53,266 nt of DNA from positions 1-53,266 of the forward strand of contig JAFKJU010000037.1 of NCBI GenBank assembly GCA_017305935.1. The letters run 5' to 3'. Positions 2,833-21,591 of this stretch are shown here, one piece after another. A program made the position numbers and the translations under genes. Position 1 is the stretch's first letter, and the number at the start of each line of letters is the position of its first letter. The notes beneath the pieces were generated by a model, which had not been told where the DNA came from, did no database searches, and saw nothing but the letters and a program-made list of their open reading frames with translations. This DNA is from Hyphomicrobiales bacterium (GTDB lineage: Bacteria > Pseudomonadota > Alphaproteobacteria > Rhizobiales > Rhizobiaceae).

Positions 2833-3555
2833 TTAGGCGGTTCGCAGGAAAATCCGCGCCAGGCCGTCCTTTACAGACGCCATAGCGTCAGTGGCGCTCA
2901 TTCGGATATGTTCGTACATCAGAAGACCGGCTTTTTCGCCCTGGCGGTTTGACAATGCGTCCGCAATGTCCGTGTGTTCGGTATAGGTGGTCGATCGACG
3001 ACGGCGCTTTTCGATTTCGATTTCCCGGACGAACCGGATGCGCGCGTTGATGCTCTCGATCATACGGGAGAGCTCGGGGTTGCCGGACATTTGCGCTATC
3101 CGCATATGGAATTCTTCGTCCTTGTCGGTCAGCTCTATGCTCGAATAGGAATCCGCTCGATCCGCGACGGCATGCCACCAGGAAGCAAGACCAAGAAGCT
3201 CATCGAGCGGAGCGTGTTCCGCGGCAAGCTGGACAGCCTTCTGTTCGAGAAATGCGCGCACATCGGACAGATGCACGATCTGGTCGACGTCCAGCCCTCG
3301 ACAAAAGAAGCCGCGGCTAGGCTGAAACGTGATCAATCCCTCCGTTACCAGGCGCTGGAGAGACTCCCGAACCGGACTGCGGCTGACATTCAGACGCGCC
3401 GCGAGCTCGACCTCGTTGATCCGCTCGTTCGGCCTGAAGTCATAACCCACAGCCATCCGGCGGACTTCCTCATAGACGCGCTCGCCCGTCGGAGTACGTT
3501 TTTGGGCGGTTACCGGAGCCATGTCGGAGAGTGACTTCTTCCTGTTTTTGGGCAT
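2833..3555 (-). CDS. GntR-family transcriptional regulator, FCD (FadR) subfamily
   Basis: A 240-residue regulator. The winged-helix DNA-binding domain covers about residues 20-95 (RINEVELAARLNVSRSPVRE, then LVTEGLITFQPSRGFF). The all-helical FCD effector domain runs from about 105 to 230, with a metal-site-like FHMRIAQMSGNPEL. FCD proteins usually repress operons for organic-acid or amino-acid catabolism and release DNA on binding an acid ligand. It lies upstream of the thiolase and beyond ridA and dadA on the same strand. It is clearly paralogous to the regulator at 15739-16458: both share the RxRRR(S/G)(S/T)TYxEH segment and the KxGLARIF tail. The two CTGTCGACAG palindromes in the dadA/importer intergenic region are its likeliest operators (inference). 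The start at 3555 has only a weak ribosome site; M12 is an alternative. Confidence 0.88.
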   Translation of the reverse strand: MPKNRKKSLSDMAPVTAQKRTPTGERVYEEVRRMAVGYDFRPNERINEVELAARLNVSRSPVRESLQRLVTEGLITFQPSRGFFCRGLDVDQIVHLSDVRAFLEQKAVQLAAEHAPLDELLGLASWWHAVADRADSYSSIELTDKDEEFHMRIAQMSGNPELSRMIESINARIRFVREIEIEKRRRRSTTYTEHTDIADALSNRQGEKAGLLMYEHIRMSATDAMASVKDGLARIFLRTA

Positions 3556-5544: not shown

Positions 5545-6636
5545 ATGAAAAGACTGCTGACCTATGCAATCCTCGTTGCCGGCCTTGCAGGTTCGGCTCA
5601 TGCCAAGGACGTCACGATCGGTGCGATCATTCCTCTGTCGGGTGCCAGTGCCACGCAGGGCGAAGACCAGCGTCGCGGGATGGAGCTGGCGCTCGAAAAG
5701 ATCAACGTGAATGGCGGCGTGCTCGGCGGCAAGCTGTCGATCATCACCGAAGACTCGGCCGGCCGCGCGCCGACTGCCCTCGACGCGGCCAAGAAGCTCG
5801 TCACCGTCGACAACGTGCCGGTGCTGATCGGCGAATTTTCATCGGGGATCACCATCCCGGTCGGGGAATACATCGCCCAGCAGAAGAAGGTGCATCTGAA
5901 CGTCGCCAGCACCAGCATCGACGTCCGCAAGATCAAGGGCGATTTCTACAGCGTGATCGGCCTCGACGATGTCTCCGGTGCTTTTTCGGCGCAGGACGCG
6001 ATCGACCGGGGCGCCAAGAAGGTGGCTGTTATCGCCCCGAACAATGCCTACGGCCAGGGCATCGCTGATGCGTTCGCCAAGAAGTTCAAGGAGCTGGGCG
6101 GCGAGGTGGCGGCCTCGATCATGTACACGGAAGGCCAGACCAGCTACCGGCGCGAACTGCAGCAGCTCGAGAAAAGCGCACCCGACATGTACGTCTATAC
6201 GGCATACGGCAAGGAATCGGCGACCATCAATCGCGAGGCATTCGAACTGGGCCTCACGGATACGCCCTGGTATGCCATGTATATCACCATGTGCACCGCC
6301 GACAGCGACCCGAAGTACATCGAGGGCCAGATCGGCATGGACCTGAACTATGTCGGTCCCTCCGGCGCCGACTACCAGGCGGCCTACAAGAAGCAGTACA
6401 ATGGCGACTTCCTCTCGACCTTCAACGGCTTCGCCTACGACGCGGTCATGATGGCGGCGGCAGCCATCAACAAGGCACAGTCGGATGATCCGGCTGCGAT
6501 TGCCGCGGCCCTGGCCGAGATCGGCAAAAAGTACGACGGCGTCACCGGTGAAATCGCATTCGATGACGAGCATCAGCGTGTGACGCAGCCCTATCTGAAG
6601 CTGAAGATTGCTTCTGGAAAGGTCGCCTCGAACTAA
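5545..6636 (+). CDS. Branched-chain/hydrophobic amino-acid ABC transporter, substrate-binding protein
   Basis: A 363-residue periplasmic binding protein of the HAAT (LivJ/LivK, Peripla_BP_6) family. A Sec signal peptide spans residues 1-20 (MKRLLTYAILVAGLAGSAHA), so the mature protein starts KDVTIGAIIPLSG. It keeps the family's NVNGGVLGG segment and the two-lobe pattern. The start at 5545 has AAAGGGGA seven bases upstream; an earlier in-frame ATG at 5488 lies inside the promoter. It is first in an operon with two permeases and two ATPases, separated from them by a hairpin at 6646-6679. HAAT proteins bind amino acids, aromatic acids, urea or amides, so the ligand here cannot be read from sequence. 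The neighbours (dadA, ridA, racemase family) favour an amino-acid-like ligand. Confidence 0.9.
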   Translation: MKRLLTYAILVAGLAGSAHAKDVTIGAIIPLSGASATQGEDQRRGMELALEKINVNGGVLGGKLSIITEDSAGRAPTALDAAKKLVTVDNVPVLIGEFSSGITIPVGEYIAQQKKVHLNVASTSIDVRKIKGDFYSVIGLDDVSGAFSAQDAIDRGAKKVAVIAPNNAYGQGIADAFAKKFKELGGEVAASIMYTEGQTSYRRELQQLEKSAPDMYVYTAYGKESATINREAFELGLTDTPWYAMYITMCTADSDPKYIEGQIGMDLNYVGPSGADYQAAYKKQYNGDFLSTFNGFAYDAVMMAAAAINKAQSDDPAAIAAALAEIGKKYDGVTGEIAFDDEHQRVTQPYLKLKIASGKVASN

Positions 6637-6645
6637 GTGTTCGCG

Positions 6646-6679
6646 GAGGGCAGGCGACGGTCGTCGTCTGCCCTCTTTT
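6646..6679 (+). terminator. Intra-operon attenuator hairpin after the binding-protein gene
   Basis: Arms gagggcaggcgac (6646-6658) and gtcgtctgccctc (6663-6675) form a 13-bp stem with one G-U pair and a GGTC loop, followed by TTTT. It lies 9 bases after the binding-protein stop and before the permease genes. Such hairpins often stabilise the upstream message and lower downstream expression, giving excess binding protein. Confidence 0.75.
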
Positions 6680-6710
6680 CGTGGCCTGCATCTTTCTGGA
6701 AAGCAAAATC

Positions 6711-7604
6711 ATGTTTCAGTTTGTCGTCGATGTCGCCCTGAGGGCGTGCGACCTTATGCTGATTGCTGTGGGAATGAGCGCGGTTTACTCGTTGATGAAG
6801 TTCCCCAACATCGCCCTTGCGCAATATGCCGCGATGGGCGCGTTCCTGGCAATTGTGTTGCAGCGAGCCGGCCTTCCGCTGGTTCCCTCGAGCATCGTCG
6901 CGGTCTTGATCGTCGGGGTAGTCGCGGTTCTTCTCAACCGCGTCCTCTTCGAAAGGATGCTGGCAATCGGCTCATCGACCGCGATGATCGGCTCTCTCGC
7001 GGTCAGCATGGTCATCTCAGCCATATTCCTGGTGATCATCGGCCCAAGTCCGGCGCGATTCAATCTTGAAATCACGCGACCGTTGCGCGTTCTCGGCGCG
7101 CGGATCACGGAACACCAGGTCCTTTCGCTTGGCATTACGGCAGCCGCCATTTCGGTGTTTGCCATCCTCCTCTTCAAGACCGATCTCGGGCGCTGTATGC
7201 GGGCGACGGCGACAAACAACCTTCTGGCCGACGCCACGGGCATCGACACACGCAAGACCAAAACCGCCGTTGTTGCCATCAGCGCGTGTCTTGCCGCGCT
7301 CGGAGGAATCATCATCACCATGAAGGGTGAGGTCAATATTCAGACGGGTCTCGATCTTCTTCTGCCGGTGTTCTCGGCGGCCATCCTCGGAGGCCTCGGA
7401 AATCCGCTCGGTGCGGTCGGCGGCGCCATTGTGATCGCCATGGCGGAGACCCTCATCACGAATGTCAACTTTGGCCCGATCCTCGGCCAGGATCTCGTGT
7501 TCCTGCCCGCTGCATATGCGACCGCCGGTTCGTTTGTGATCCTCGTCCTGACGCTCTTGTGGCGTCCGCGCGGGCTCTTCATCAGCGAGGTGAAGCGTGT
7601 TTGA
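6711..7604 (+). CDS. Branched-chain amino-acid ABC transporter permease (LivH type)
   Basis: A 297-residue inner-membrane protein with about eight hydrophobic helices. The LivH hallmark lies near residues 20-50 (GMSAVYSLMKFPNIALAQYA), and AILGGLGNPLGAVGGA near the C-terminus is the EAA-like loop that contacts the ATPases. I chose ATG 6711 over 6681: it has GGAAAG upstream and starts directly at the membrane region. It overlaps the LivM-type gene by 8 bases, indicating coupled translation. It forms the channel with that protein. Confidence 0.92.
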   Translation: MFQFVVDVALRACDLMLIAVGMSAVYSLMKFPNIALAQYAAMGAFLAIVLQRAGLPLVPSSIVAVLIVGVVAVLLNRVLFERMLAIGSSTAMIGSLAVSMVISAIFLVIIGPSPARFNLEITRPLRVLGARITEHQVLSLGITAAAISVFAILLFKTDLGRCMRATATNNLLADATGIDTRKTKTAVVAISACLAALGGIIITMKGEVNIQTGLDLLLPVFSAAILGGLGNPLGAVGGAIVIAMAETLITNVNFGPILGQDLVFLPAAYATAGSFVILVLTLLWRPRGLFISEVKRV

Positions 7605-8490
7605 CTTTCTGATCCACGTCCTGATCATGTGCTGCCTTTACAGCATGCTCGCGCTCAGTCTGAACCTTCAGGTCGGCTTTGGCGGTCTGATGAACTTCGG
7701 CCAAATCGCCTTGTTTGGCTGCGGAGCCTATGGTGCAGCCCTTGCCTATAAATATGATCTGGGCTTTGCATCGGGTATTCTGATTGCCGTCGGCCTGTCG
7801 GCGTTCGTGTCCTGGGCATTTGCCGGCATCGGCCGCAATCTCCAATCCGATTACTGGGGTATAGCGACGCTCGCGCTTGCCGAAGTCGTTCGCATCATTG
7901 TCACCAACGAAGGATGGCTGACGGGCGGTGCGCAAGGGATCAGCGGCATCAAGCCGCTCCTGCCGGAACTTTCCGGGCGCAGCCAGCAACTTGGCAATCT
8001 CGCGATCTGTGGTGCCGTGCTTCTGGTGGCCTTGCTTGCGTGCATGCGTCTGACGAGGAGCAGATACGGTCTGGGGCTGAAGCTGATGCGCGAGGAGCCG
8101 CAGCTTGCGCAGTCTGTCGGCTATGACATCATGTCGCTGAAGCGTGGGTGCATGATATTCTCCGGATTCATCGCTGCCGCAGCAGGTTTCATTTTCGCCC
8201 ACTACATCACGTTCGTCGGCCCGGATCAGATGTTCAGCTCGGAGACGTTTCTGATCTGGGCAATGATCGTCATCGGTGGATTGGGCAATCACTTCGGAGC
8301 GGTCTTCGGGGCGTTTCTGCTTCAGTTCATCTTTGCCTTCATCCCCTTCGTCAAGGACATGCTCGGATTGCCCACCGAGTTCGTCGCCGCCATGCGGCTG
8401 GTTCTGATCGGCGGTGGTCTGATCGGTTTCATCCTCTGGCGCCGCACGGGACTGTTCCCGGAAAAGGTCGGAGGGCGTGCCGATGGCTGA
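7597..8490 (+). CDS. Branched-chain amino-acid ABC transporter permease (LivM type)
   Basis: A 297-residue membrane permease that starts at GTG 7597, inside the end of the LivH-type gene. Family segments visible are LSLNLQVGFGGLMNFGQIAL near residues 22-41 and MIVIGGLGNHFGAVFGAFLL near 225. It is shorter than E. coli LivM (about 425), as usual for the HAAT class. It heterodimerises with the LivH-type protein; a short overlap with the downstream ATPase gene shows tight coupling. Confidence 0.92.
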   Translation: MFDFLIHVLIMCCLYSMLALSLNLQVGFGGLMNFGQIALFGCGAYGAALAYKYDLGFASGILIAVGLSAFVSWAFAGIGRNLQSDYWGIATLALAEVVRIIVTNEGWLTGGAQGISGIKPLLPELSGRSQQLGNLAICGAVLLVALLACMRLTRSRYGLGLKLMREEPQLAQSVGYDIMSLKRGCMIFSGFIAAAAGFIFAHYITFVGPDQMFSSETFLIWAMIVIGGLGNHFGAVFGAFLLQFIFAFIPFVKDMLGLPTEFVAAMRLVLIGGGLIGFILWRRTGLFPEKVGGRADG

Positions 8491-9241
8491 GCCCGTCCTG
8501 AAAATATCCGGCGTCGCAAAATCCTATGGCGCCAATCAGGTTTTGAAAGACATCAACCTGGAGGTTGGCGCCCAGGAGATCGTCGGTCTGCTTGGTCCAA
8601 ACGGATGTGGGAAGAGCACTCTCCTCAATCTGTCGAGCGGGTTCGCTCGCGCAGATGCCGGGTCGATCATTTTTGGCGGCCACGACATTACCGCCTGGGG
8701 CGTTGAGAGGATCGCCCAGGCGGGGCTGGTGCGGACATTCCAGCTACCGTCGATGCCTCACCGCATGACCGTCGCAGAGGTCTTGCGGGCGGCAGATTCG
8801 CGCGGCGTCCAGTTCAAAACCATGTTCGCACCGGACCGGTCATCAATGCAGGAGGTCGACGCGCTGCTTGAGGGGCTGTCGCTCTCGCATGTCCGCAATC
8901 TGCCGGCCGGCTCCCTTTCCGGTGGCCAGAAGAAATTGCTGTCGATCGCTTTGGCACTTCGTACGAACCCTAAGCTCATCTGCCTCGACGAGCCGACGGC
9001 CGGTGTGCATCCGAACCTCAGGCACAGCATGGTACAGCTCCTGCGGCGGGTGAGCGAGCGGGGTATTGCGCTGCTGATCGTTGAGCATGACATGCACTTC
9101 ATTCGCGAACTCTGCAGCCGATGCGTTGTTCTTGACCGAGGGGAGGTCATTGCGAACTGCGTGCCCGCTTCGCTGACTTCAAACGAACGCGTCGTCGAGG
9201 CCTACCTTGGGAGCGCCAGAGACAAGGGGGCTATTGCATGA
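8483..9241 (+). CDS. ABC transporter ATP-binding protein (LivG type)
   Basis: A 252-residue cytoplasmic ATPase: Walker A GPNGCGKST (about residues 37-45), signature LSGGQKK, Walker B LICLDEPTAGV, and an H-loop in IVEHDMHFI. LivG-type proteins carry the longer C-terminal region seen here. I prefer ATG 8483, nine bases from GGAGGG, over GTG 8477. It overlaps both neighbours (LivM type by 8 bases, LivF type by 4). Confidence 0.92.
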   Translation: MAEPVLKISGVAKSYGANQVLKDINLEVGAQEIVGLLGPNGCGKSTLLNLSSGFARADAGSIIFGGHDITAWGVERIAQAGLVRTFQLPSMPHRMTVAEVLRAADSRGVQFKTMFAPDRSSMQEVDALLEGLSLSHVRNLPAGSLSGGQKKLLSIALALRTNPKLICLDEPTAGVHPNLRHSMVQLLRRVSERGIALLIVEHDMHFIRELCSRCVVLDRGEVIANCVPASLTSNERVVEAYLGSARDKGAIA

Positions 9242-9960
9242 TCGAGGTTCAGGGAGTGCGTGCCGGATATGGGGATGGCCCCGATATCCTGAACGGAATC
9301 AATCTCGTTGCCGATGCCGGAAAGATCGTGACGATTCTCGGTCCCAACGGTTGCGGAAAGTCGACTTTGCTGAAGTGCATCGCCGGTTTCGTCAGGCCGA
9401 GGGCCGGCGATGTAAGGATGTCCGGCACGGCGGTGACGAACCTCAAGGCCCACGAGAAGGTTCGATCCCATGGCGTCGGGTTCGTTCCGCAAACCGACAA
9501 CGTCTTTTCGTCGATGTCGGTAACCGAGAATATCATGCTTGGTGCCCGCTTTGTCGCAAGGGCGGAACGGGAGCAGCGCTTCGAGGCCCTCTTGACGCAA
9601 TACCCGGCGCTCGCAGCAAAAAGGAACCGCAAGGCGTCCGCGCTCTCGGGAGGCGAACGCCAACTTCTTTCACTTGCGAGGGCGCTGATCGCAAAGCCGC
9701 GAATTCTCCTGCTCGATGAACCTTCCGCCGGTCTGTCGCCGCGGATGATGCATGAGGTGTTCGAAGCGATCAGCGAGATTCGTGCGCGAGAAGGAATCTG
9801 CATCCTTATGGTGGAGCAAAACGCCTTTGAAGCGCTCCACATCTCGGACACTGCCTATGTCCTGTCGCTTGGCGATGTCGCGATGCAGGGCAGGGCATCC
9901 GATCTACTAGCAGACCCGGCAATGCGGTCACTTTATCTCGGCGGCGATGCGCCGCACTGA
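9238..9960 (+). CDS. ABC transporter ATP-binding protein (LivF type)
   Basis: A 240-residue ATPase that completes the importer. It has Walker A GPNGCGKST, signature LSGGERQ, Walker B ILLLDEPSAGL, and the LivF-like MVEQNAFEAL after the switch region. It starts at ATGA, overlapping the LivG-type stop. The racemase-family gene follows after 41 bases, so transport and catabolic genes are probably one transcript. Confidence 0.92.
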   Translation: MIEVQGVRAGYGDGPDILNGINLVADAGKIVTILGPNGCGKSTLLKCIAGFVRPRAGDVRMSGTAVTNLKAHEKVRSHGVGFVPQTDNVFSSMSVTENIMLGARFVARAEREQRFEALLTQYPALAAKRNRKASALSGGERQLLSLARALIAKPRILLLDEPSAGLSPRMMHEVFEAISEIRAREGICILMVEQNAFEALHISDTAYVLSLGDVAMQGRASDLLADPAMRSLYLGGDAPH

Positions 9961-10001: not shown

Positions 10002-10799
10002 ATGTCCGAAGCCGCCTTGAAGTATCAGGACACTCTCGCCACCAATATGGAGAACATCGCCTTTGAGCTCGACAAAGGCGTCGGCACGCGCGCCAATCTC
10101 GGGCTTCTGGTTCTGCGCACCGACCAGACGATCGAGGACGAGTTCCGCCACGCGATCCCCGATCAGGGGGTTGCCCTCTACGAGGCGCGGTTGTTCAGCG
10201 AGGTCGAAATCACGCCGCCCAACCTGCGCAAGATGTATGACGAAATTCCGCGGACGGTCGGGTTGCTGCCTGATGTCCAGTTCGACGTCATAGGCTTCGC
10301 ATGCACCTCAGGGTCGCTGGTGATCGGAGAGGACGTGATCGAAACGCGGGTTCAGGAAAGCATGCCCGGGGTCAAGGTCACCAACCCCGTCACGGCCGCC
10401 CGTGCCGCGCTGGAAGCGCTTGGCGTGAAACGGATCGCTCTTCTCACGCCGTACCTTGCCAATATCAATCACTCGCTGCGGGCGTCGCTGATCGAGCGCG
10501 GCATGGACATCCCCGTCATGGGCTCCTTCAATGAGCCGGACGACAATCTGGTGGCACGCATTCGTCCGCAGTCCATCGAAAAAGCCATCCTCGACGTCGG
10601 CGCTTCGGAAGACTGCGACGCCGTTTTCGTCTCCTGTACCAGCCTGCGTGTGGCGCGGATTGTCGAACAGGTTGAAAGGAAGCTTGGAAAGCCCGTCACA
10701 TCGAGCAATCACGCCCTGGCATGGCACATGCTTCGTCTTAGTGGCGTGAACGACTCGATCGAGGGGCTCGGCGAACTGTTCCGGAAGCCGCTGAAGTGA
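10002..10799 (+). CDS. Aspartate/glutamate racemase-superfamily protein (maleate isomerase / arylmalonate decarboxylase-like)
   Basis: A 265-residue member of the cofactor-free Asp/Glu racemase superfamily. Two Cys sit in the expected catalytic places, Cys101 (FACTSGSLVIGE) and Cys212 (VSCTSLRVARI). With both present, racemase or cis-trans (maleate) isomerase chemistry is possible; arylmalonate decarboxylases keep only one. A conserved VTNPVTAA segment near residue 130 resembles the maleate isomerase/decarboxylase branch rather than Asp racemase. A GAAGGAA site precedes the start. It sits between the importer and the flavoprotein on the same strand. Combined with the dadA-like enzyme it could epimerise the imported amino acid; equally it could isomerise an unsaturated diacid later in the route. 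Exact activity unknown. Confidence 0.8.
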   Translation: MSEAALKYQDTLATNMENIAFELDKGVGTRANLGLLVLRTDQTIEDEFRHAIPDQGVALYEARLFSEVEITPPNLRKMYDEIPRTVGLLPDVQFDVIGFACTSGSLVIGEDVIETRVQESMPGVKVTNPVTAARAALEALGVKRIALLTPYLANINHSLRASLIERGMDIPVMGSFNEPDDNLVARIRPQSIEKAILDVGASEDCDAVFVSCTSLRVARIVEQVERKLGKPVTSSNHALAWHMLRLSGVNDSIEGLGELFRKPLK

Positions 10800-10840: not shown

Positions 10841-12478
10841 ATGCAAATGGAACAGAGTGATATCGAAACCGACGTCGTGGTGATCGGTTCGGGATCGGGC
10901 GCGCTTTCCGCCGCCTTGCGGGCTTCTGCCGGCGGGCTGCGGGTCGTCATCTTGGAAAAGGCTGATGTCATCGGAGGCACGACAGCCATGTCGGGGGCCG
11001 GGACGTGGATCCCGGCAAACCATCACGCCCGCAACGCCGGGTTCGGCGACTCGGTCGAGGAAGCCATTGCCTATCTTCGTTCGGCCGCGCCCGGCGGATG
11101 GCGCGAGCATGAGGACGCGCTCTGGACGAATTTCGCGATCAATGCGCCCAAGGCACTGAAATTCATCGAGGACACCACACCGCTGGAATTTGCCCTGACC
11201 GAGGAGCCGGACGTGTTCGTCGAAGCTCCGGGCGGCAAGAAGGTGGGGCGAATGCTCTCGCCGAAACCACTCAGCAAACACATCCTTGGGAAGTTCAAGA
11301 ACAAGATCCGCTCGTCGACGCTTCCGCATATCTTCACCTACCAGGAAGTCTACATCGGAGACCTCTATCATCGCCCTATTTGGACCGGGTTCCGGTTCGC
11401 CCATAAGCTGGCCTGGCGCCTTCTCACGAAATCGCGCGCGCAAGGCAGCGCCTTGGTGACGGGGCTTCTCAAGGGGTGCCTTGATCAGGGATGCACGATC
11501 GAGACCGGAACGCGCGTCACCGAGCTCGTCACAAACTCTGACGGATTTGCGGTGACAGGCGTTGTCGCTGAAACCGCCGCAGGCCTGCGCCGCTATCGGG
11601 CGCTGCGCGGGGTCGTGATTGCAAGCGGTGGCTTCGAATGGAACGAGGAGATGCGGAAAACGTACTTCGCCGGTCCGCTCGATTATCTGGGTAGTCCGCG
11701 CACGAATGAAGGCGATGGGCAGAAGATGGCGGCTGCCGTGGGCGCGCACCTCGCCCATATGGACCAGGCGAACGTCTATCCGACGATGCCCACACGCTAT
11801 GAGGGGAAATCCCACGGCATCCCGCTGATTTTCCAGGCGGAGCATCATGCGATCGTCGTGAACAGACACGGACGCCGCTTCGTCAGCGAGTATGATTTCA
11901 ACATCGGGGAGGCTATCGACAAGCGCGATCCCAACACCGGAGAAGCGGTTCACCTCCCTGCCTGGGTGATTGCCGACAAGCGTTTTCTCAGCCAGGCGCT
12001 TCCCTTCCTCTGGTATTCCCGCAAGGCGCCGAACTGGCTCCGCAAGGCAAGATCACTCGGTGAGCTCGCCCGTCGGATCGGTCTGCCAGCCGCCGAACTC
12101 GAAAGGACCGTTGCGCGGTACAACGGCTTTTGCGCAGCGGGTAAGGACCAGGACTTCGGGCGCGGCGAATCCGAATGGGAACAGTTCAAGGCAGGAGGCA
12201 AGGATGCCGCGCTCGCGACGGTCGAGAAGGGGCCGTTCTACGCAATGCCTTTCAACCGGTCCATCCTCGGAACCAAAGGCGGCGCCCGCACCAATGAACA
12301 CGGACAGGTCCTTCGTGAGGATGGAAGCCTGATTTCTGGTCTGTACGCGGCTGGTCTCGCCATGGCGAACCCGATCGGCACTCGTGCCGTCGGTCCCGGA
12401 ACGACAATCGGACCGAACCTGACCTGGGGCTACATCTGCGGGGAGGCGCTTTTGCGGGACAATCGAGTCCAGGGATAA
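10841..12478 (+). CDS. FAD-dependent oxidoreductase, fumarate-reductase/3-ketosteroid dehydrogenase type
   Basis: A 545-residue flavoprotein of the FAD_binding_2 class. The dinucleotide site GSGSGA is at residues 16-21, the acidic strand end is VVILEKAD, and the flavin-embracing IGGTTAMSGAG follows. The C-terminus has GTRAVGPGTTIGPNLTWGYI, the second FAD-binding segment of KstD-like enzymes. Such proteins insert or remove a C=C bond next to a carbonyl (3-oxosteroid delta-1-dehydrogenase, fumarate or urocanate reductase type). There is no signal peptide, so it acts in the cytoplasm. It follows the racemase-family gene by 41 bases. Steroid catabolism is unlikely, since no other steroid genes are present. 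The precise start (10841 or 10847) is uncertain because the ribosome site is weak. Confidence 0.82.
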   Translation: MQMEQSDIETDVVVIGSGSGALSAALRASAGGLRVVILEKADVIGGTTAMSGAGTWIPANHHARNAGFGDSVEEAIAYLRSAAPGGWREHEDALWTNFAINAPKALKFIEDTTPLEFALTEEPDVFVEAPGGKKVGRMLSPKPLSKHILGKFKNKIRSSTLPHIFTYQEVYIGDLYHRPIWTGFRFAHKLAWRLLTKSRAQGSALVTGLLKGCLDQGCTIETGTRVTELVTNSDGFAVTGVVAETAAGLRRYRALRGVVIASGGFEWNEEMRKTYFAGPLDYLGSPRTNEGDGQKMAAAVGAHLAHMDQANVYPTMPTRYEGKSHGIPLIFQAEHHAIVVNRHGRRFVSEYDFNIGEAIDKRDPNTGEAVHLPAWVIADKRFLSQALPFLWYSRKAPNWLRKARSLGELARRIGLPAAELERTVARYNGFCAAGKDQDFGRGESEWEQFKAGGKDAALATVEKGPFYAMPFNRSILGTKGGARTNEHGQVLREDGSLISGLYAAGLAMANPIGTRAVGPGTTIGPNLTWGYICGEALLRDNRVQG

Positions 12479-12558: not shown

Positions 12559-13314
12559 ATGGCCTGGGATGATCTGAACGGCAAGACAGCGTTGATCACC
12601 GGAGCTTCGAGCGGATTGGGCAAGCATTTTGCTGGCGTCCTTGCCCGCTGCGGGGTGCATGTCGTTCTCGCGGCCCGTAACGAGGCAGCCTTGCAAAATG
12701 AGTGCGATGCCATTCTCGCCTCCGGAGGCCAAGCTTCGTTCATCGCCATGGATGTTACAAATCCGGTTTCCGTCGGGCAGGCGTTCGAGAACGCCCGGAT
12801 GCGCTTCGATATCATCGTGAACAATGCAGGGATCAGCGGCGCCGGCTCGGCCCTGGATATCGAGGAATCGACGTGGGACGCCGTTGTCGACACCAACCTC
12901 AAAGGCGTGTTCTGCGTGGCGCAAGCCGGCGCAAGGAAAATGCGGGAAGACAAGCACGGCGGCAGTATCGTCAACATCGCTTCTATCCTCGGCCTGCGCG
13001 TGGCCGGGCAGGTCGCCGCCTATACCGCATCCAAAGCCGCCGTCGTTCAGCTCTCGCAGGCTCTGGCACTGGAATGGGCGCGATACGGTATCCGGGTAAA
13101 CGCACTTTGCCCCGGCTACTTCGAGACCGAGCTGAACAAGGAATTCTTCTCTTCGGAAGCTGGGCAGGCCCTGATCAAGCGTATTCCTCAGCGCCGGCTC
13201 GGCCGTCTGGAGGAACTCGACGCACCGCTCCTGCTGCTATGCTCGCAGGCTGGCAGCTTCATAACTGGCGCGACCCTTGCGGTAGACGGCGGCCATCTGG
13301 TTTCCAGCCTTTAG
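12559..13314 (+). CDS. Short-chain dehydrogenase/reductase
   Basis: A 251-residue classical SDR: cofactor motif TGASSGLG at residues 14-21, NNAG at 88-91, and the catalytic triad Ser142, Tyr155 and Lys159 (YTASK). The arginine after beta-2 (LAARNE) suggests NADP(H) preference. ATG 12559 follows TAGAGGAGTGG; the upstream ATG 12523 falls inside the palindrome and has no ribosome site. It begins a trio with the acyl-CoA dehydrogenase and APH-type kinase downstream. By analogy with LvaD of Pseudomonas putida it may reduce a 4-oxoacyl-CoA to the 4-hydroxyacyl-CoA or do the reverse; that role is inferred from the gene set. Confidence 0.88.
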   Translation: MAWDDLNGKTALITGASSGLGKHFAGVLARCGVHVVLAARNEAALQNECDAILASGGQASFIAMDVTNPVSVGQAFENARMRFDIIVNNAGISGAGSALDIEESTWDAVVDTNLKGVFCVAQAGARKMREDKHGGSIVNIASILGLRVAGQVAAYTASKAAVVQLSQALALEWARYGIRVNALCPGYFETELNKEFFSSEAGQALIKRIPQRRLGRLEELDAPLLLLCSQAGSFITGATLAVDGGHLVSSL

Positions 13315-13397
13315 GGCGTCTCCACCCTTCATCGCCGACTTTCACTAACACTCTGTTTTCTCCCATTTCCCGCGAATTGCCCTGAAGGATTAATGCT

Positions 13398-14618
13398 ATG
13401 GACTTCACGATTTCGAAAGAGCTGGATGACCTGCGCAGCCGCATTGCGGCGTTCGTAGCCGACAACGTCCTGCCGCTCGAAAGCAACCCTGACGCCTATG
13501 ACGAGCACGGCAATATCTCCACGCGTCATTTGGGACCTCTGCGCGAAGAGGCCCGTCAGGCGGGTCTATGGTGCCTGCAACTTCCCCGGCCGGACGGCAG
13601 CTTTATCGGCCGTGTCGGCATGGCGGTTTGCTACGAAGAGATGAACCGATCGATCTTCGGTCCGGTCGTCTTCAACTCGGCTGCTCCCGACGACGGCAAC
13701 ATGATGGTCATGCATCAGCTGTGCCGACCCGACCAGCGCGAGAAATGGCTACAGCCGATCGTCGAGGGGAAAGTGCGTTCGGCATTCGCCATGACGGAGC
13801 CGAGCCCAGGCGGCGGCTCAGACCCGTCAATGATCCGGACCACGGCGAAGAAGGTCGGCAATCGCTATGTGCTTCATGGCCGGAAGTGGTTCATCACCGG
13901 TGCGCAGGAGGCTGCACATTTTATCGTCATCGCCAGGACGTCGGATGATCCTCGTTCGGGGCTGTCCGCGCTCATGTTCCACAAGGATCAGCCCGGCTGG
14001 CGGATCGTCCGGCGGATACCCATCATGGGGCCTGAGGAGCATGGCGGGCATTGCGAAATCGAGTTCGATGGACTGGAGATTCCCGAAGAGGATCTCCTGC
14101 TCGAAGAGGGAAGGGGGCTGAAGGTCACCCAGGTCCGGCTCGGACCGGCGCGTCTCACGCATTGCATGCGCTGGCTGGGCCTGTCGAAGCGTGCTGTGGA
14201 GATCGCCGTGGACTATGCCGAGCGGCGCGAAGGCTTCGGCGTGCGCCTTGCCAACCGTGAAAGCATCCAGATGATGCTGGGGGATCTGGCGATGGGCATC
14301 GAGGTCGGACGACTGCTGGTGATGAAGGCCGCATGGGAATTGGACCAGGGCAGCTTTGCCAAGAAGGAAGTCTCCATGGCCAAGATCCATGTCGCAAACC
14401 TGCTTCACAAGGCGGCCGACACCGCGATCCAGATCAACGGCGCTCGGGGATACTCGACGGACACTGTGCTCGAATGGATCTATCGTTACGCGCGGCAGGC
14501 TCGCTTGGTCGATGGGGCGGACGAGGTGCATAAGATGGTGCTGAATCGTCACCTCGCCGATGAGCGGCGCGATTTCTGGCGCTGGAACACTGGTGAAACC
14601 CAGACTGCGATCAAGTGA
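13398..14618 (+). CDS. Acyl-CoA dehydrogenase, ACAD10/11-like (LvaC-like)
   Basis: A 406-residue FAD enzyme of the acyl-CoA dehydrogenase fold. The N-terminal helical domain covers about 1-125; the FAD-binding MTEPSPGGGSDPSMIRT and WFITGA lie in the middle; the C-terminal helices hold INGARGYSTDTVLEW. At the position of the catalytic Glu loop (YEGT in medium-chain enzymes) it has DGADEVH beginning at Asp372. This signature is shared with ACAD10/ACAD11 and with LvaC. Those proteins act with a linked or neighbouring APH-type kinase on 4-hydroxyacyl-CoA: the 4-phosphoacyl-CoA loses phosphate to give 2-enoyl-CoA. Here the kinase gene follows after 12 bases. A plain alpha,beta-dehydrogenase role is the alternative. 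Confidence 0.88.
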   Translation: MDFTISKELDDLRSRIAAFVADNVLPLESNPDAYDEHGNISTRHLGPLREEARQAGLWCLQLPRPDGSFIGRVGMAVCYEEMNRSIFGPVVFNSAAPDDGNMMVMHQLCRPDQREKWLQPIVEGKVRSAFAMTEPSPGGGSDPSMIRTTAKKVGNRYVLHGRKWFITGAQEAAHFIVIARTSDDPRSGLSALMFHKDQPGWRIVRRIPIMGPEEHGGHCEIEFDGLEIPEEDLLLEEGRGLKVTQVRLGPARLTHCMRWLGLSKRAVEIAVDYAERREGFGVRLANRESIQMMLGDLAMGIEVGRLLVMKAAWELDQGSFAKKEVSMAKIHVANLLHKAADTAIQINGARGYSTDTVLEWIYRYARQARLVDGADEVHKMVLNRHLADERRDFWRWNTGETQTAIK

Positions 14619-14630
14619 CCGGGGCGAAAG

Positions 14631-15716
14631 ATGAACCAAGTTTCAGAAATGCAGGCTGGCGCCCAGGCAACCGAGTTCGATAGGGATAAGCTGCACAGGT
14701 TTCTCGATGCCACATTTGGCGCGAGCAAGGATTTCAGCCTTACACGGGTCAGCGGAGGGCAGTCCAATCCGACATTCTTCGTCGAGCACGGCGACAGGCG
14801 GATGGTCTTGCGCAAGAAGCCGCCGGGGCAGCTTCTTCCTGGAGCCCATGCGATCGAGCGCGAGTATCGTGTGATCTCGGCTCTTTCGTCGCAAACGGAC
14901 GTGCCTGTGCCGGCGCCTATCCTTCTTCACGAGGATAGCGAGCTTCTCGGAACGCCGTTCTATCTGATGGAGCGTGTCGAAGGAAGGGTATTTTCCGATT
15001 GCGCGTTGCCGGAGGTTGCCGCCGAAGAGCGGGCGGGCTTCTACTTTGGAATGGCGGAGGCGATGGCGAGGCTGCACGCCGTTCAGCCAGAGGAGATCGG
15101 GCTTTCGGACTTCGGTCGCCCTGGAAACTATTTCGACCGGCAGATCGCCCGTTGGACGAAGCAATGGGTCGAATCGCCCAGCGAACGTATCCCCGCGCTT
15201 GACGAGCTGTCACGGTGGCTTCCGGCAAACCTCCCGGATGACGACGGCGGCACATCGATAGCGCATGGCGATTTCCGTTTGGGGAACATGCTGTTTCATC
15301 CGACCGAGCCGCGCGTTGTGGCAATCCTCGATTGGGAATTGTCGACTTTGGGGCATCCTCTGGCGGATCTTGGTTTTTGCTGCATGCCTTGGCACACTGC
15401 ACCATCGGAGTATGGCGGGATTCTCGGCCTGGATGCCGCAGCTCTTCGCCTGCCGACTGAAGGACAATTCATCGAGCACTATTATCGGCACGCAATTCCG
15501 ACATCGCCGCTGCGGCGTTTCCATGTTGCCTTCGCGCTTTTCCGGTTTGCGGTCATTTGGGTTGGCATCGCCGATCGTGTTCGGGCGGGCAATGCCGCCG
15601 CTCACGATGCGTCCGAGGCGGGTCCGCTCGCGGAGAAGTTCGCTCTGCGCGGCCTCGAAGTTGCGACTGGCCGGCAAGGTTTCGCCGAAACCGGCGGCGG
15701 CGCCGGGCCGGTTTAA
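14631..15716 (+). CDS. APH-family phosphotransferase, ACAD10/11 N-terminal-domain type (LvaA-like)
   Basis: A 361-residue kinase-fold protein. Visible are RKKPPG near residues 61-66, the catalytic HGDFRLGN with His212, Asp214 and Asn219, and the metal-binding [18 protein letters not shown] (Asp234, Glu236). The last motif is almost identical to that of the kinase domain fused to human ACAD10/11 and to stand-alone bacterial partners such as LvaA. Expected activity: ATP-dependent phosphorylation of the hydroxyl of a 4-hydroxyacyl-CoA. It is co-transcribed with the acyl-CoA dehydrogenase and ends 22 bases from a convergent gntR gene. An aminoglycoside-resistance role is very unlikely given this motif and context. 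Confidence 0.88.
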
Positions 15717-15738: not shown

Positions 15739-16458
15739 TCAACCGGTGCGTCCGAAAAATATGCGGGCGAGACCTTCCTTCGTCACCTCAACGGCATGAG
15801 CCGAACTCATGATGATATGCCTCTCGATGAGCGCGCCGCCAACGTCCTCGTCGCGTCGCGTCAGGGCGTCGATGATAGCGGCATGCTCGTCATATGTGCT
15901 GCCGCGTCGCCGCTTGCTTTCCAGATCGATCACCCGGAAAAATCGAATTCGGTCATTGATCTCACCGATGGCACGGATCATCTCTGAATTCTGGCTCAGT
16001 TCGACGATCGCGAGGTGAAAGGCCTCGTCTGCCTTGGCGACCTGCGTCCAATCGACCGCACTCATATCGTCGAGTTTTCCGGCGCTGTTCGTCCAAACCG
16101 CCGCGGCTGCCGCGATTTCCTTATCGCTGGCGCGTTGGCACGCCCATCGAAACGCGCCGCGCTCGATCGATGCCCGCAGTTCGTAGAGAGCCTGAACGCT
16201 TTCAGGCGCAAGTTCGCGGGAGTAAAACCCTTTGTTCGGAACGAAGGTCATGAAACCGTCTCGGACAAGACGATTGAGGCTTTCGCGCACCGGCGTCCGC
16301 GAGCAGCCGAGCCTGGCGGCGAGTTCGACTTCGTTCACACGTTCACCTGGCTTGAAACGATATTCGACCGCAAGTTCCTTGATGGCCTCGTAGACACGAT
16401 CGACAACGTCGGCCGGACGGGCTGGCTTTTGTGCCTTTACTTGAGTGGATGAGCGCAT
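15739..16458 (-). CDS. GntR-family transcriptional regulator, FCD subfamily (paralogue of 2833-3555)
   Basis: A 239-residue GntR-FCD protein. The winged helix is at about residues 20-90 (RVNEVELAARLGCSRTPVRE, then GFMTFVPNKGFYSREL), and the FCD domain follows with FHLAIVELSQNSEM and a C-terminal histidine helix. It shares with the first regulator the SKRRRGSTYDEH-like segment and the KEGLARIF ending, so the two are close paralogues at opposite ends of the island. It converges on the kinase gene and is followed upstream by the 2-oxoacid dehydrogenase operon on the same strand. An inverted repeat at 16508-16524, 50 bases upstream of its start, could be its own operator. Which of the two controls which operon cannot be told from sequence. 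Confidence 0.88.
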   Translation of the reverse strand: MRSSTQVKAQKPARPADVVDRVYEAIKELAVEYRFKPGERVNEVELAARLGCSRTPVRESLNRLVRDGFMTFVPNKGFYSRELAPESVQALYELRASIERGAFRWACQRASDKEIAAAAAVWTNSAGKLDDMSAVDWTQVAKADEAFHLAIVELSQNSEMIRAIGEINDRIRFFRVIDLESKRRRGSTYDEHAAIIDALTRRDEDVGGALIERHIIMSSAHAVEVTKEGLARIFFGRTG

Positions 16459-16507
16459 GCCGGAAAGTGCCTCGTTCGGATCGCCGCCTTGACGGAAGCA
16501 TTTGATT

Positions 16508-16524: not shown

Positions 16525-16611
16525 GATTTGTCTTTAACGGCACGTAGAATCGATGCCAAGCCCGGATTCGCCGGCCATGAAGGCCAACTCGAGCTTCCTG
16601 AGGCGGCGCGG

Positions 16612-16636: not shown

Positions 16637-16641
16637 GATCG

Positions 16642-18024
16642 TCAGATATGCAGCGCCTGTCCCAGTGAGCGCAACGCCGCTTCCTGGAAGGCTTCGCTCT
16701 GGGTCGGATGCGCATGGATCGTCCCGGCGATATCCTCAAGGCGAAGCCCCGCTTCGATGGCCAGCGCAAATGTCGCCGACATCTCCGATATGCCCGCGCC
16801 CACGGCCTGAATGCCGAGAATGATGTGGTTGTCCTTACGCGCAACGATCCTGACGAAACCGTCCTCGCGCTCGGTGGTCATCGCGCGACCATTGGCCTCG
16901 AACGGGAAGGTGCTGACGATCGTCTCCACGTCTGTAGCATCTTCGGGCAGCGCACCGACCGAGACCAGTTCGGGATCCGTGAAGCAAACCGCCGGAATGC
17001 ACCGCTTATCCCAGTCGCGCTTGTGACCGGCGACGATTTCGGCAACCATTTCGCCCTGTGCCATCGCGCGATGCGCCAGCATCGGCTCGCCGGTGACGTC
17101 ACCGATGGCGAAGACGCCGCGCATCGAAGTCCGGCAGGAGCCATCGATCTTGATGAACTTTCCGTCCATCGTCAGCGACAGGCGTTCGAGATCGAAGCCT
17201 TGCGTGCGCGGCCGGCGGCCGACGGTCACGAGGATTCTCTCAGCCTGAACCGTTTCCTCCTTGCCGTCGACTTCCACGACCAGGCCGCCGCCTTGTGCCC
17301 GGCCTTTGGCCTTGGCGTTGGTCATGAGGCGAATGCCAAGATGTCCAAGCCGCTGGCTGACCGGGCGAACAAGTTCCGCGTCATAGATCGGCAGAACCTG
17401 CGATGCCGCCTCGATGACGGTAACCTGGCTGCCAAGTTTCTGGAACGCAATTCCCAATTCCAGCCCGATATAGCCACCGCCAACAACGGCGAGGCTATCG
17501 GGAACCGTCTTCAACGAAAGCGCCTCCGTGGAAGACAGGATATCCCCGCCGAAGGGAAGGGATGGCAGTTCGACCGGCGCCGAGCCGGTGGCGATCACGA
17601 CATTCTCCGCGGAGATCTGCACCGGGCCATCGGCAGTGTCGACCACCACGGTCTTTCCGTCGAGGATTTTGGCCTCGCCTTCAATGAGCTTGACCTTCGC
17701 CTTCCGGAACAGTCCCGCGACGCCTGTGTTGAGCCTTTGAACGATTCCGTCCTTCCAGGCGGTGGTCTTGCCGAGATCGATTTCCGCGCCTGAAGCGGAA
17801 ATCCCGATCGAATGACCGTTCTCGAGCGAACGGAGCTTATAATATTCGTCTGCCGCGTGGATGAGCGCCTTGGAAGGGATGCAGCCGACGTTCAGGCACG
17901 TTCCGCCCGGTTTTTGCGGATCGACGACGATCGTGTCGATGCCGAGCTGGCCGGCCCGGATCGCGCAGACATATCCTCCGGGACCGGCGCCGATGACGAG
18001 CAGTTTGCAGGAGAGCTTGTTCAT
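16642..18024 (-). CDS. lpdA: Dihydrolipoyl dehydrogenase (E3)
   Basis: A 460-residue flavoprotein disulfide reductase that reoxidises the dihydrolipoyl group of E2 with NAD+. FAD-binding GAGPGG is at residues 12-17. The redox-active disulfide Cys43/Cys48 lies in GGTCLNVGCIPSK, the NAD-binding site is GGGYIGLELG, and the C-terminal active-site His is in HAHPTQSEAF. It is the last gene of the four-gene branched-chain 2-oxoacid dehydrogenase operon, four bases after E2. It is more likely dedicated to this complex than a housekeeping copy. Confidence 0.93.
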   Translation of the reverse strand: MNKLSCKLLVIGAGPGGYVCAIRAGQLGIDTIVVDPQKPGGTCLNVGCIPSKALIHAADEYYKLRSLENGHSIGISASGAEIDLGKTTAWKDGIVQRLNTGVAGLFRKAKVKLIEGEAKILDGKTVVVDTADGPVQISAENVVIATGSAPVELPSLPFGGDILSSTEALSLKTVPDSLAVVGGGYIGLELGIAFQKLGSQVTVIEAASQVLPIYDAELVRPVSQRLGHLGIRLMTNAKAKGRAQGGGLVVEVDGKEETVQAERILVTVGRRPRTQGFDLERLSLTMDGKFIKIDGSCRTSMRGVFAIGDVTGEPMLAHRAMAQGEMVAEIVAGHKRDWDKRCIPAVCFTDPELVSVGALPEDATDVETIVSTFPFEANGRAMTTEREDGFVRIVARKDNHIILGIQAVGAGISEMSATFALAIEAGLRLEDIAGTIHAHPTQSEAFQEAALRSLGQALHI

Positions 18025-18028: not shown

Positions 18029-19327
18029 TTACGTCTCCAGGAAGAGCAGGGCCGGATTTTCCAGAAGTTCCTTCATCCGGTTGATGAAGACGGCCGCGTC
18101 GTAGCCATCAACGATGCGGTGATCGAAGCTGCAGGAAAGGTTAATCATCTTTCTCGGCACGAAGGTCGATGTCGTCGCATCCCAGACAGGGCGGATCGCC
18201 ATCTTGTTGACACCGACGATGGCCACCTCCGGATGGTTGATGATCGGCGTGAACACGATGCCACCGAGAGCGCCAAGCGATGTGAGGGTGATCGTCGAGC
18301 CGGTCAGTTCATCCCGGCTGGCCGTTCCATCGCGAGCGGCTTTCGAGACGCGCAGAACCTCGTCCGCATTGCCCCAAAGACTATTTGCCTCCGCATGCCG
18401 GACGACCGGAACGAGCAGGCCGCCGCCCGTTTGTGTGGCGACGCCGATATGCACGGCGCCGAAACGGCGCACGATGCCCGCTTCGTCGTCGTAATGGGCA
18501 TTGCAGACCGGCAGATCGGCGAGCGTGCGAACCATCGCCTGCATGAGGAAGGGCAGGACCGTCAGCTTCGTGCGGTCACCCTTGGCGTTCAGTCTGGCCC
18601 GCAACTCTTCGAGAGCGGTGACATCCACCTCCTCGACGCTGGAGATATGCGGAATATTGCGATTGGCAAGCGACATGCGCTCGGCGATCTTGCGGCGAAG
18701 ACCGATCACCTTGATCTCGCTCACATCCGTCTTGGGGCGTTTACCGCCGCCGGACACGGGTGAATCCTGCCCGCCGCTTGCGAAATAGCCGTCTAGGTCC
18801 TCATGCGTGATCCGTCCGCCCGGCGCCGTGCCGCGAACGCGGCGCAAGTCGATACCAGCAGCTCGGGCGCGGGTTCTGACCGCAGGCGAAGCAAGGGGCT
18901 TTTCACCTTCCGGCCGCAGCGGCCCGTTGATCTGTTCGGGGCGCGCGGGCGCTGGCGCGACGGATGAAGGCACGGTTGCGGGTTTGGCCGCAATTGGCGG
19001 CTTTTCCGGCTCCGGGGCCGCTTCCGCCTTTGGAGCCGGTGCCTCCTCGGTGGAAGCTTGGGCTACCTCATCCATATTTCCCGCGCCATCGATCTCAAGC
19101 CGGATCAGTTCCGACCCGATGGCCATCAGAGTACCGGGCTCGCTGCCGAGCCAGACCACTTTGCCGGAAATCGATGTCGGGATCTCGACGGTCGCCTTGT
19201 CGGTCATCACGGCGGCGAGGAGATCGTCCTCGCGCACTTCATCACCGATATTTACGAGCCATTCGACCAGTTCGGCCTCGGCAATGCCTTCGCCGATATC
19301 CGGCAAGCGGATAGAGTAAATGCCCAT
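18029..19327 (-). CDS. bkdB: Branched-chain 2-oxoacid dehydrogenase E2 (dihydrolipoyllysine acyltransferase)
   Basis: A 432-residue E2 core protein. One lipoyl domain (residues 1-75) carries the lipoylated Lys44 in TDKATVE. An Ala/Pro/Glu-rich linker follows (about 90-130), then a peripheral subunit-binding domain (about 145-180: RTRARAAGIDLRRVRGTAPG) and the catalytic acyltransferase domain ending with SFDHRIVDGYDAA (HxxxDG). It transfers the acyl group from E1-bound thiamine to CoA. The single lipoyl domain and the company of separate E1 alpha and E1 beta genes fit BKD rather than pyruvate dehydrogenase. One base separates it from E1 beta. Confidence 0.92.
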   Translation of the reverse strand: MGIYSIRLPDIGEGIAEAELVEWLVNIGDEVREDDLLAAVMTDKATVEIPTSISGKVVWLGSEPGTLMAIGSELIRLEIDGAGNMDEVAQASTEEAPAPKAEAAPEPEKPPIAAKPATVPSSVAPAPARPEQINGPLRPEGEKPLASPAVRTRARAAGIDLRRVRGTAPGGRITHEDLDGYFASGGQDSPVSGGGKRPKTDVSEIKVIGLRRKIAERMSLANRNIPHISSVEEVDVTALEELRARLNAKGDRTKLTVLPFLMQAMVRTLADLPVCNAHYDDEAGIVRRFGAVHIGVATQTGGGLLVPVVRHAEANSLWGNADEVLRVSKAARDGTASRDELTGSTITLTSLGALGGIVFTPIINHPEVAIVGVNKMAIRPVWDATTSTFVPRKMINLSCSFDHRIVDGYDAAVFINRMKELLENPALLFLET

Positions 19328-19328: not shown

Positions 19329-20342
19329 TCAGGCCTCCATGATTTCGGTAAGAGCAGCGGCGACGCGCGCGGGGCCGGGGAAGTAGCTCCATTCGTGGAC
19401 GTAAGGATAGGGCGTGTCCCAGCCGCAGATGCGCGTGACAGGCGCTTCGAGATGGTAGAAGCACTCCGCCTGGACGAGCGCCGCCAGCTCGGCTCCGAAG
19501 CCGGAGGTCAAGGTCGCCTCATGGACGACGGCGCAGCGACCGGTCTTTTTCACCGATTGCACGATAGTGTCGAGGTCGAGCGGCAACAGCGTCCTGAGGT
19601 CGATCACCTCGGCATCCACGCCACTTTCCTCCGCCGCGGCCTCGCAGACATGGACCATTGTGCCATAGGCCAGAACCGTCACGGCGGACCCTTCACGATG
19701 AATGGCGGCCTTTCCGAACGGTGTCGTGTAATAGCCGGGATCGACCTCGCTGAGGGGATGCGCTTTCCACGGCTTCACCGGACGGTCGTGGTGACCGTCG
19801 AAAGGCCCGTTATAGATGCGCTTCGGCTCGAGAAAGATCACAGGATCCGGTTCCTCGATGGCCTGAAGCAGCAGTCCCTTGGCATCCTGCGGATTAGACG
19901 GAATGACAACCTTCAAGCCTGGAATATGCGTAAACAGCGCCTCCGGGCTCTGGCTGTGGGTGAGACCGCCGAGAATGCCGCCACCGGTCGGCATGCGTAC
20001 GACGATGGGGCAGATAGCATCACCTGCGGAGCGATAACGCATGCGCGCCGCCTCGGAGACGATCTGGTCATAAGCAGGATAGACATAGTCGGCGAACTGG
20101 ATCTCGGCGACCGGCTTGATGCCGTAGGAAGCCATGCCGATGGCCGTGCCAACGATACCCTGCTCGCTGATTGGCGTGTCGAAGCAGCGAGTCTTGCCAT
20201 ACTTTTGCTGCAGGCCGACCGTGCAGCGGAACACCCCGCCAAAGTAGCCGACATCCTGTCCGAAGACGACCACCCGGTCGTCTCGTCCCATCGCCACGTC
20301 CAATGCGTTGCGGATGGCCTCAACCATAGTCATCTGGACCAT
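19329..20342 (-). CDS. bkdA2: Branched-chain 2-oxoacid dehydrogenase E1 beta subunit
   Basis: A 337-residue transketolase-like subunit. It begins MVQMTMVEAIRNALD and contains GQDVGYFGGVFRCTVGL, FDTPISEQGIVGTAIGMA and the cation-binding region seen in BCKDH E1 beta. I start at ATG 20342, one base after the E1 alpha stop (20344-20346), where homology begins. The open frame extends upstream into E1 alpha but that part is not real. It pairs with E1 alpha as alpha2-beta2 and decarboxylates 2-oxoisovalerate-type acids. Confidence 0.92.
   Translation of the reverse strand: MVQMTMVEAIRNALDVAMGRDDRVVVFGQDVGYFGGVFRCTVGLQQKYGKTRCFDTPISEQGIVGTAIGMASYGIKPVAEIQFADYVYPAYDQIVSEAARMRYRSAGDAICPIVVRMPTGGGILGGLTHSQSPEALFTHIPGLKVVIPSNPQDAKGLLLQAIEEPDPVIFLEPKRIYNGPFDGHHDRPVKPWKAHPLSEVDPGYYTTPFGKAAIHREGSAVTVLAYGTMVHVCEAAAEESGVDAEVIDLRTLLPLDLDTIVQSVKKTGRCAVVHEATLTSGFGAELAALVQAECFYHLEAPVTRICGWDTPYPYVHEWSYFPGPARVAAALTEIMEA

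Positions 20343-20343: not shown

Positions 20344-21591
<1,248 letters not shown>

Follow-up and report, generated by a model that had tools for sequence, protein, structure and literature searches.

Positions 1 to 53,266 of contig JAFKJU010000037.1 (contig 69 of a 6.55 Mb genome; assembly GCA_017305935.1) of a Hyphomicrobiales bacterium of the Rhizobiaceae were analysed; this whole stretch of 53,266 nucleotides is referred to as the window. Three adjacent genes of the window encode a short-chain dehydrogenase/reductase (SDR), an acyl-CoA dehydrogenase (ACAD) and an APH-family kinase, of which the last two are predicted to remove a 4-hydroxyl group from an acyl-CoA. Together with neighbouring genes for amino acid uptake and oxidation and for a 2-oxoacid dehydrogenase complex, this trio probably forms, and we say so with some reserve, one catabolic system (positions ~1540-21576) for an amino acid carrying a hydroxyl or oxo group on C5. 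The gene content of the region, the catalytic signatures of its enzymes, the position of the ACAD in a phylogenetic tree and the recurrence of the gene set in other genomes were observed and form the basis of this reading. The genes of the trio are:

12559..13314, plus strand: SDR oxidoreductase, the oxidoreductase of the trio, with TGxxxGxG and YxxxK motifs (adh_short_C2)
13398..14618, plus strand: ACAD10/11-type acyl-CoA dehydrogenase, predicted 4-phosphoacyl-CoA eliminase (R247, R252, H255-C-M-R258, D372)
14631..15716, plus strand: APH-family kinase, predicted 4-hydroxyacyl-CoA kinase (D214, N219, R170, D234)

An earlier note on this DNA had described the three genes as adjacent on the plus strand at 12559-15716. 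All three frames were found to be open and intact, and the motifs quoted there, DGADEVH in the ACAD and a 17-residue stretch in the kinase, are both present in the translations. For the SDR an alternative in-frame upstream start is possible at 12523. Pfam scores are 3e-56 for the SDR (adh_short_C2), 3e-36 for the ACAD (Acyl-CoA_dh_1) and 1e-54 for the kinase (APH). The note had also assigned to kinase and ACAD the kinase and eliminase chemistry of the levulinate (lva) pathway and of ACAD10/11, and the residues of both proteins argue for this assignment. The best solved relatives of the kinase are 3dxp (2.8e-93, 49 % identity) and then the kinase domain of ACAD11 (1.1e-71, 43 % identity to the mouse domain). 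The kinase keeps the catalytic Asp D214, the Asn N219, R170 and the DxW Asp D234, and R170 corresponds to an Arg that ACAD11 is modelled to put near CoA. The same Asp, Asn, Arg and DxW Asp are kept in 79 of 80 related kinases, the remaining row being unaligned at the tested columns. These 80 loci are the nearest kinase loci from one scan of genome contigs with the window kinase; in the kinase tree L022 was left out and L015 was dropped by the tool.

The best solved relative of the ACAD is ACAD11 (8v3u, 2.7e-69), and its identity to mouse ACAD11 is 37 %. In ACAD11, residues R626, H634 and R637 bind the 4-phosphate and D753 is the catalytic Asp (PMC12440821); at these sites the numbers in the structure file are one lower than in that paper. 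The window ACAD carries the phosphate-binding set R247 and H255-C-M-R258 as well as the catalytic D372. The R/R/HCMR/D set was also found in mouse ACAD11 and in all 78 ACADs that could be extracted from the 80 loci (L013 and L022 gave no match, and L069 has its ACAD on the other strand), and its full form in none of the eight ordinary ACAD paralogues of the own genome. The catalytic Asp is not diagnostic alone, since one of these eight paralogues also aligns an Asp at that column.

Clustering of the ACAD with ordinary dehydrogenases had been named as an outcome that would speak against the proposed chemistry. In the tree the ACAD10/11-like set is instead split from the ordinary ACADs with a support of 100/100; it divides into two sister clades, one (100/99) formed by mouse ACAD11, 4hr3 and three rows from the loci, the other (99/99) by the window ACAD and 75 rows, mostly from Alphaproteobacteria. 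The branches are long, a setting in which, as the tool cautions, even well-supported joins can be false. On signature residues and tree position an ordinary ACAD is rejected. LvaC is reported to be 62 % and 56 % identical to ACAD10 and ACAD11, respectively (PMC11342911). Because the window ACAD shares only 37 % with mouse ACAD11, it probably sits beside, and not inside, the clade of LvaC and ACAD10/11. It is unlikely to be an LvaC orthologue in view of this identity and its sister-clade placement in a tree from which LvaC itself is absent. The earlier description of the trio as lva-like needs correction on this point.

The other features of the region are:

1540..2718, minus strand: thiolase, 55-62 % identical to thiolases less than 8 kb from the kinase in 10 of the 80 loci
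2833..3555, minus strand: GntR/FCD regulator GntRa, with orthologues beside DadA in relatives
3974..5275, minus strand: D-amino acid dehydrogenase DadA, divergent from LivK and above the NF001933 cut-off; the listed frame starts further upstream, at 5335
5545..9960, plus strand: LivK, LivH, LivM, LivG and LivF, a branched-chain-type amino acid ABC transporter
10002..10799, plus strand: EutA-like protein of the Asp/Glu racemase superfamily, predicted amino acid racemase (C101, C212)
10841..12478, plus strand: FAD-dependent oxidoreductase of the KstD/ChcC (4-oxocyclohexanecarboxylate dehydrogenase) type
15739..16458, minus strand: GntR/FCD regulator GntRb, with orthologues (63-69 %) in five genomes
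16642..18024, minus strand: E3 of the 2-oxoacid dehydrogenase complex
18029..19327, minus strand: E2 acyltransferase with a lipoyl motif
19329..20339, minus strand: E1 beta
20344..21576, minus strand: E1 alpha with a 2-oxoisovalerate dehydrogenase N-terminal domain (PF12573)

The trio stands at the end of a codirectional plus-strand run of LivKHMGF, EutA-like gene, FAD oxidoreductase, SDR, ACAD and APH kinase, in which 41 bases separate the EutA-like gene from the FAD oxidoreductase and the next three gaps measure 80, 83 and 12 bases. Upstream of LivK lies a minus-strand group of DadA, GntRa and thiolase, and downstream GntRb and the four-subunit complex (15739-21576) are convergent with the kinase. 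IS110- and ISL3-type transposase genes (22550-25458) separate the complex from the gene group that follows and are likely to mark the island edge.

In the proposed pathway LivKHMGF would import the amino acid, the EutA-like protein would convert it to the D form and DadA would oxidise this to the 2-oxoacid. The branched-chain-type complex would then remove C1 as CO2 and join the remainder to CoA, so that the old C5 becomes C4; no ligase would be needed, because the complex forms the CoA ester during decarboxylation. The SDR may reduce C4 if this is a ketone, or act later on a 3-hydroxyacyl-CoA. Phosphorylation of the 4-hydroxyl by the APH kinase and elimination of the phosphate by the ACAD would give a 2-enoyl-CoA, and beta-oxidation with the local thiolase would complete the breakdown. 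Every reaction, the substrate, the order of the steps and any role of the FAD oxidoreductase are what we infer from the genes. Since C1 is lost, the hydroxyl must be on C5 of the amino acid to arrive at C4 of the acyl-CoA, a correction to the earlier note.

For the EutA-like protein a racemase or isomerase is the better guess. Arylmalonate decarboxylases (AMDases) have a Gly in place of the first Cys, and racemases have the second Cys as well (PMC4996985). Both C101 and C212 are kept in 30 of 30 loci, the window included, and a racemase or isomerase is preferred for this reason. The protein scores 182 bits against the ectoine-utilisation EutA model TIGR02990, below its cut-off of 318. Of 394 genomes sampled from the family, 8 encode a close homologue (at least 73 % identity), the own genome among them. 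In four contexts, on Neorhizobium, Shinella and Rhizobium sp. 11515TR plasmids and in G653, the EutA-like gene ends a DadA-LivKHMGF-EutA module accompanied by a GntRa orthologue; in G209 it occurs with DadA and GntRa only. DadA, LivKHMGF and EutA-like proteins of the Neorhizobium, Shinella and Rhizobium modules are 62-79 % identical to those of the window, and RidA-family and EamA-family genes are annotated beside the Shinella module.

The 2-oxoacid dehydrogenase complex that the earlier note had placed at 16642-21576 was confirmed: E1 alpha, E1 beta, E2 and E3 are encoded there by the minus strand, and these subunits carry the thiamine pyrophosphate, lipoyl, HxxxDG and CxxxxC motifs. A complex that resembles 2-oxoisovalerate dehydrogenase (PF12573) and a branched-chain-type transporter would also fit a system in which complex and module serve the breakdown of ordinary amino acids, branched-chain or D, while the trio handles a minor hydroxylated by-product. 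The genome, however, harbours a second branched-chain complex that can do that job (E1 alpha 69 % identical, G000:C97:163490-164713), located beside an ordinary ACAD and thiolase and probably the housekeeping copy, and we consider degradation of ordinary amino acids improbable. Because of this second complex the window copy looks dedicated.

Indolepyruvate:ferredoxin oxidoreductase (IOR) and the 2-oxoacid dehydrogenase complex both turn 2-oxoacids into acyl-CoA. The window gene set recurs in three other genomes (G466, G660 and G506), in which IOR replaces the branched-chain-type complex. In five genomes (G345, G434, G466, G630 and G660) IOR precedes the LivKHMGF-EutA module, and all five have an ACAD that is 74-76 % identical to that of the window, each with SDR and kinase. 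The IOR, which counts 1,180 residues in G466, scores above the NCBIfam cut-off for indolepyruvate ferredoxin oxidoreductase. A GntRb orthologue lies before IOR in G434, G466 and G660, and beside trio and DadA in G345 and G630. The order in G466 and G660 is SDR-ACAD-APH, DadA (opposite strand), GntRb, IOR, LivKHMGF and EutA; in G434 the trio lies ~16 kb from the EutA-like gene. In G506, identified by comparing the EutA-like and ACAD surveys of family genomes, thiolase, DadA, EutA, LivKHMGF, IOR, GntR, SDR, ACAD and APH follow each other in this order on one strand, with non-trio identities of 45-56 % (Liv), 53 % (IOR), 47 % (EutA), 58 % (DadA) and 35 % (GntR). Queries for ligase, lyase, BKACE and CoA transferase gave no match in the stretches of G466, G660 and G506 that were read.

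This recurrence bears on the origin of the acyl-CoA, for which the earlier note had put forward the complex instead of a ligase. Within the window we infer the link between trio and complex, since the complex is only convergent with the trio there. The link gains independent support from the three other genomes, in which the trio adjoins DadA, EutA-like, LivKHMGF, GntR and IOR genes; the comparison supports this proposal. The recurrence also bears on the explanation that trio and amino acid module were joined by chance via mobile elements. The IS110- and ISL3-type transposases at 22550-25458 adjoin the region, and the exact arrangement of the window is absent from every other genome searched; yet a diverged, compact version of the same set exists in G506 and contiguity is common to G466 and G660, which makes a chance union very improbable.

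The 80 kinase loci were surveyed for neighbours by tblastn with fixed queries, which covers the named query families only, within 8 kb of the kinase where the contig allows (20 of the 80 have a flank shorter than 8 kb on at least one side). In 77 loci an ACAD lies on the strand of the kinase. An AMP ligase directly precedes the kinase in 14 loci, and a 2-hydroxyacyl-CoA lyase with another ligase lies upstream in nine (L045, L047, L059, L074, L076, L078, L079, L082 and L088), which suggests one-carbon shortening before removal of the 4-hydroxyl. BKACE, a possible further ligase-free source of acyl-CoA, is encoded upstream on the same strand in 13 loci, many of them Mesorhizobium (L043, L046, L049, L052-L056, L061, L065, L071, L072 and L075), and a same-strand CoA transferase was found in two (L044 and L063). 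In 38 of the 80 loci at least one of four makers is present, namely a ligase immediately ahead of the kinase, a lyase, or a BKACE or CoA transferase encoded on the same strand; in the remaining 42 none of these makers was seen, which does not equal absence. The pair of ACAD and kinase thus appears to be a portable module for 4-hydroxyl removal, set beside several acyl-CoA sources. With an ACAD11-like query, matches were obtained in 36 of 150 genomes in a phylum-wide search and in 196 records in a plasmid search.

According to the earlier note the trio is without its own acyl-CoA synthetase. A family search gave no AMP-binding (ligase) match among all 18 recognised genes between 1540 and 21576, which agrees with that statement. 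The lack of a nearby ligase is common among the related loci, however, and is not unusual because the ACAD-kinase pair adjoins varied acyl-CoA makers. The trio could serve a free 4-hydroxy or 4-oxo acid or a gamma-lactone, activated by a general ligase elsewhere as in the levulinate pathway, with amino acid module and complex as mere neighbours. The 14 loci with a ligase directly before the kinase and the nine with ligase and lyase fit this explanation, as do seven AMP-ligase-family matches elsewhere in the own genome, which are only 28-33 % identical to the trio-type ligase. Deletion of lvaE is reported not to stop growth on levulinate (PMC6692424). Furthermore, in L029 (2826-11023) and L063 (4708-12277) a UilS-lactonase-like gene (below the model cut-off) comes after a gene that fuses E1 alpha and E1 beta, and both genes form a row with those for SDR, ACAD and kinase; the row of L029 includes a ligase and that of L063 a CoA transferase. 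These rows may represent a gamma-lactone pathway, and lactonase neighbours fit 4-hydroxy acid chemistry. An explanation by free acids nevertheless accounts neither for the codirectional run from LivK to APH nor for the fact that in G466, G660 and G506 the trio again comes with DadA, EutA-like, LivKHMGF and 2-oxoacid oxidoreductase genes, and is regarded as rather unlikely.

The window itself has an open reading frame with a metallo-beta-lactamase fold (PF00753; 31283-32068, minus strand) in a separate gene group, which we take to resemble an AttM/BlcC-type lactonase. Used as a query against the 80 trio loci, it had no match at a distance of up to 8 kb from the kinase.

A number of observations weigh against the reading of trio, module and complex as one amino acid system. 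Complex and trio of the window lie on opposite strands in convergent orientation, and a scan gave promoter and terminator counts near chance. The seven AMP-ligase-family matches of the own genome count here as well. The trio was not found in the stretches read of the four EutA-like contexts named above, the Neorhizobium, Shinella and Rhizobium sp. 11515TR plasmids and G653. Among the 80 nearest kinase loci no EutA-like or FAD oxidoreductase-like match was found, and E1 matches occur in only four (L029, L063, L044 with E1 halves at the contig end, and L013 with E1 ~10 kb off), all of another E1 type (E1 alpha 28-33 %, E1 beta 45-47 %). In G345 and G630 trio, DadA and GntRb lie together, but the IOR module is 65-110 kb away. 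The association of the ACAD with the EutA-like gene across the family, on the other hand, counts in favour of the reading. An ACAD at E <= 1e-150 (70-100 % identity) was found in 54 of the 394 sampled family genomes, with only 4-6 candidates per genome scored in the two surveys and at most four for the ACAD outside the own genus. It was present in 6 of 8 genomes with a close EutA-like gene and in 48 of 386 others (Fisher p = 1e-4), or in 5 of 7 when the own genome is excluded (p = 6e-4). These genomes do not count as independent, since a single genus (g172) supplies four of the five others that have both genes. The two other genomes of the seven, G209 and G653, which have a close EutA-like gene and no ACAD of this clade, speak against the reading.

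The FAD oxidoreductase, which lies within the operon and is unaccounted for by the proposed pathway, is a further point against it. Its relatives (46-60 %) occur in different surroundings; several have an E1 pair of another type close by, and one, on a Neorhizobium plasmid, has cupin and B12-binding genes. None was beside the trio in any locus read, and the FAD oxidoreductase was rejected as a trio member on these grounds. An SDR gene with 45 % identity or more accompanies the kinase in 49 of the 80 loci. The SDR of the window may either reduce a C4 ketone, as LvaD is reported to do (PMC6692424), or oxidise a 3-hydroxyacyl-CoA. A TetR-family regulator gene (L238:10916-11632, minus strand) is divergent from the SDR gene and conserved in G345, G434, G630, G660 and G398; in the window its place is occupied by the FAD oxidoreductase gene.

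The single amino acid system that we favour predicts a testable class of substrates, C5-hydroxy or C5-oxo amino acids. One candidate only is 5-hydroxynorvaline, which would give 4-hydroxybutyryl-CoA and then crotonyl-CoA. This amino acid is reported to be abundant in maize (PMC4286406) and to accumulate in leaves of nodulated Medicago (PMC12675435). A wider proposal can be offered tentatively, as a possibility about which we are doubtful: rhizobia would possess a conserved pathway devoted to amino acids with a C5 hydroxyl or oxo group, in which complex and IOR are interchangeable and an ACAD10/11-like clade supplies the eliminase. For instance, it would take the plant defence compound 5-hydroxynorvaline via 4-hydroxybutyryl-CoA and crotonyl-CoA to two acetyl-CoA. 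Open-access literature searches yielded no bacterial breakdown pathway for C5-hydroxy amino acids and no coupling of the trio chemistry to 2-oxoacid oxidoreductase and amino acid genes, and literature searches yielded no published assay for the eliminase clade of the window. A route from an amino acid to 4-hydroxyacyl-CoA, called unreported in the earlier note, was likewise without a report in the open-access literature searched.

The joint removal of a 4-hydroxyl by a kinase and an ACAD-like eliminase is established in two cases, a bacterium that degrades levulinate and mammals that degrade 4-hydroxy fatty acids. The bacterium forms the CoA ester with a ligase encoded in the operon itself. 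In the window the ester would instead arise when a 2-oxoacid derived from an amino acid is oxidatively decarboxylated, which, if true, ties this chemistry to amino acid breakdown. Homologues of lvaABCD are present in many Proteobacteria (PMC6692424, citing another paper), and homologues as such are for that reason not new. The chemistry is already known; the eliminase clade appears to be neither LvaC nor ACAD10/11 proper. The survey may also aid the annotation of genes that so far carry no closer label than phosphotransferase family or acyl-CoA dehydrogenase family protein.

Compared with the Pseudomonas putida lva system (LvaABCDE), the window has in common a kinase, an ACAD-family eliminase and an SDR, with a predicted conversion of 4-hydroxyacyl-CoA via 4-phosphoacyl-CoA to enoyl-CoA. 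It differs in that no ligase gene equivalent to lvaE lies in the operon, the gene order is SDR-ACAD-kinase, and the 12 bases between ACAD and APH fit no gene where LvaB could lie. Moreover, the window has GntR-type regulators, whereas lva has the sigma54-type LvaR; it also has 2-oxoacid dehydrogenase and amino acid genes, and its ACAD falls in the sister clade. With mammalian ACAD10 and ACAD11 it shares the tested signature residues of both domains, whereas its genes are separate and not fused, its clade is distinct, and its acyl-CoA is predicted to come from oxidative decarboxylation and not from fatty acid activation. The complex resembles branched-chain 2-oxoacid dehydrogenases in having four subunits with the usual motifs, but is the second copy in its genome and stands beside GntRb and the trio. 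Finally, the DadA/EutA-like/LivKHMGF modules of Neorhizobium, Shinella and Rhizobium end at the EutA-like gene, whereas the module of the window runs on to the trio.

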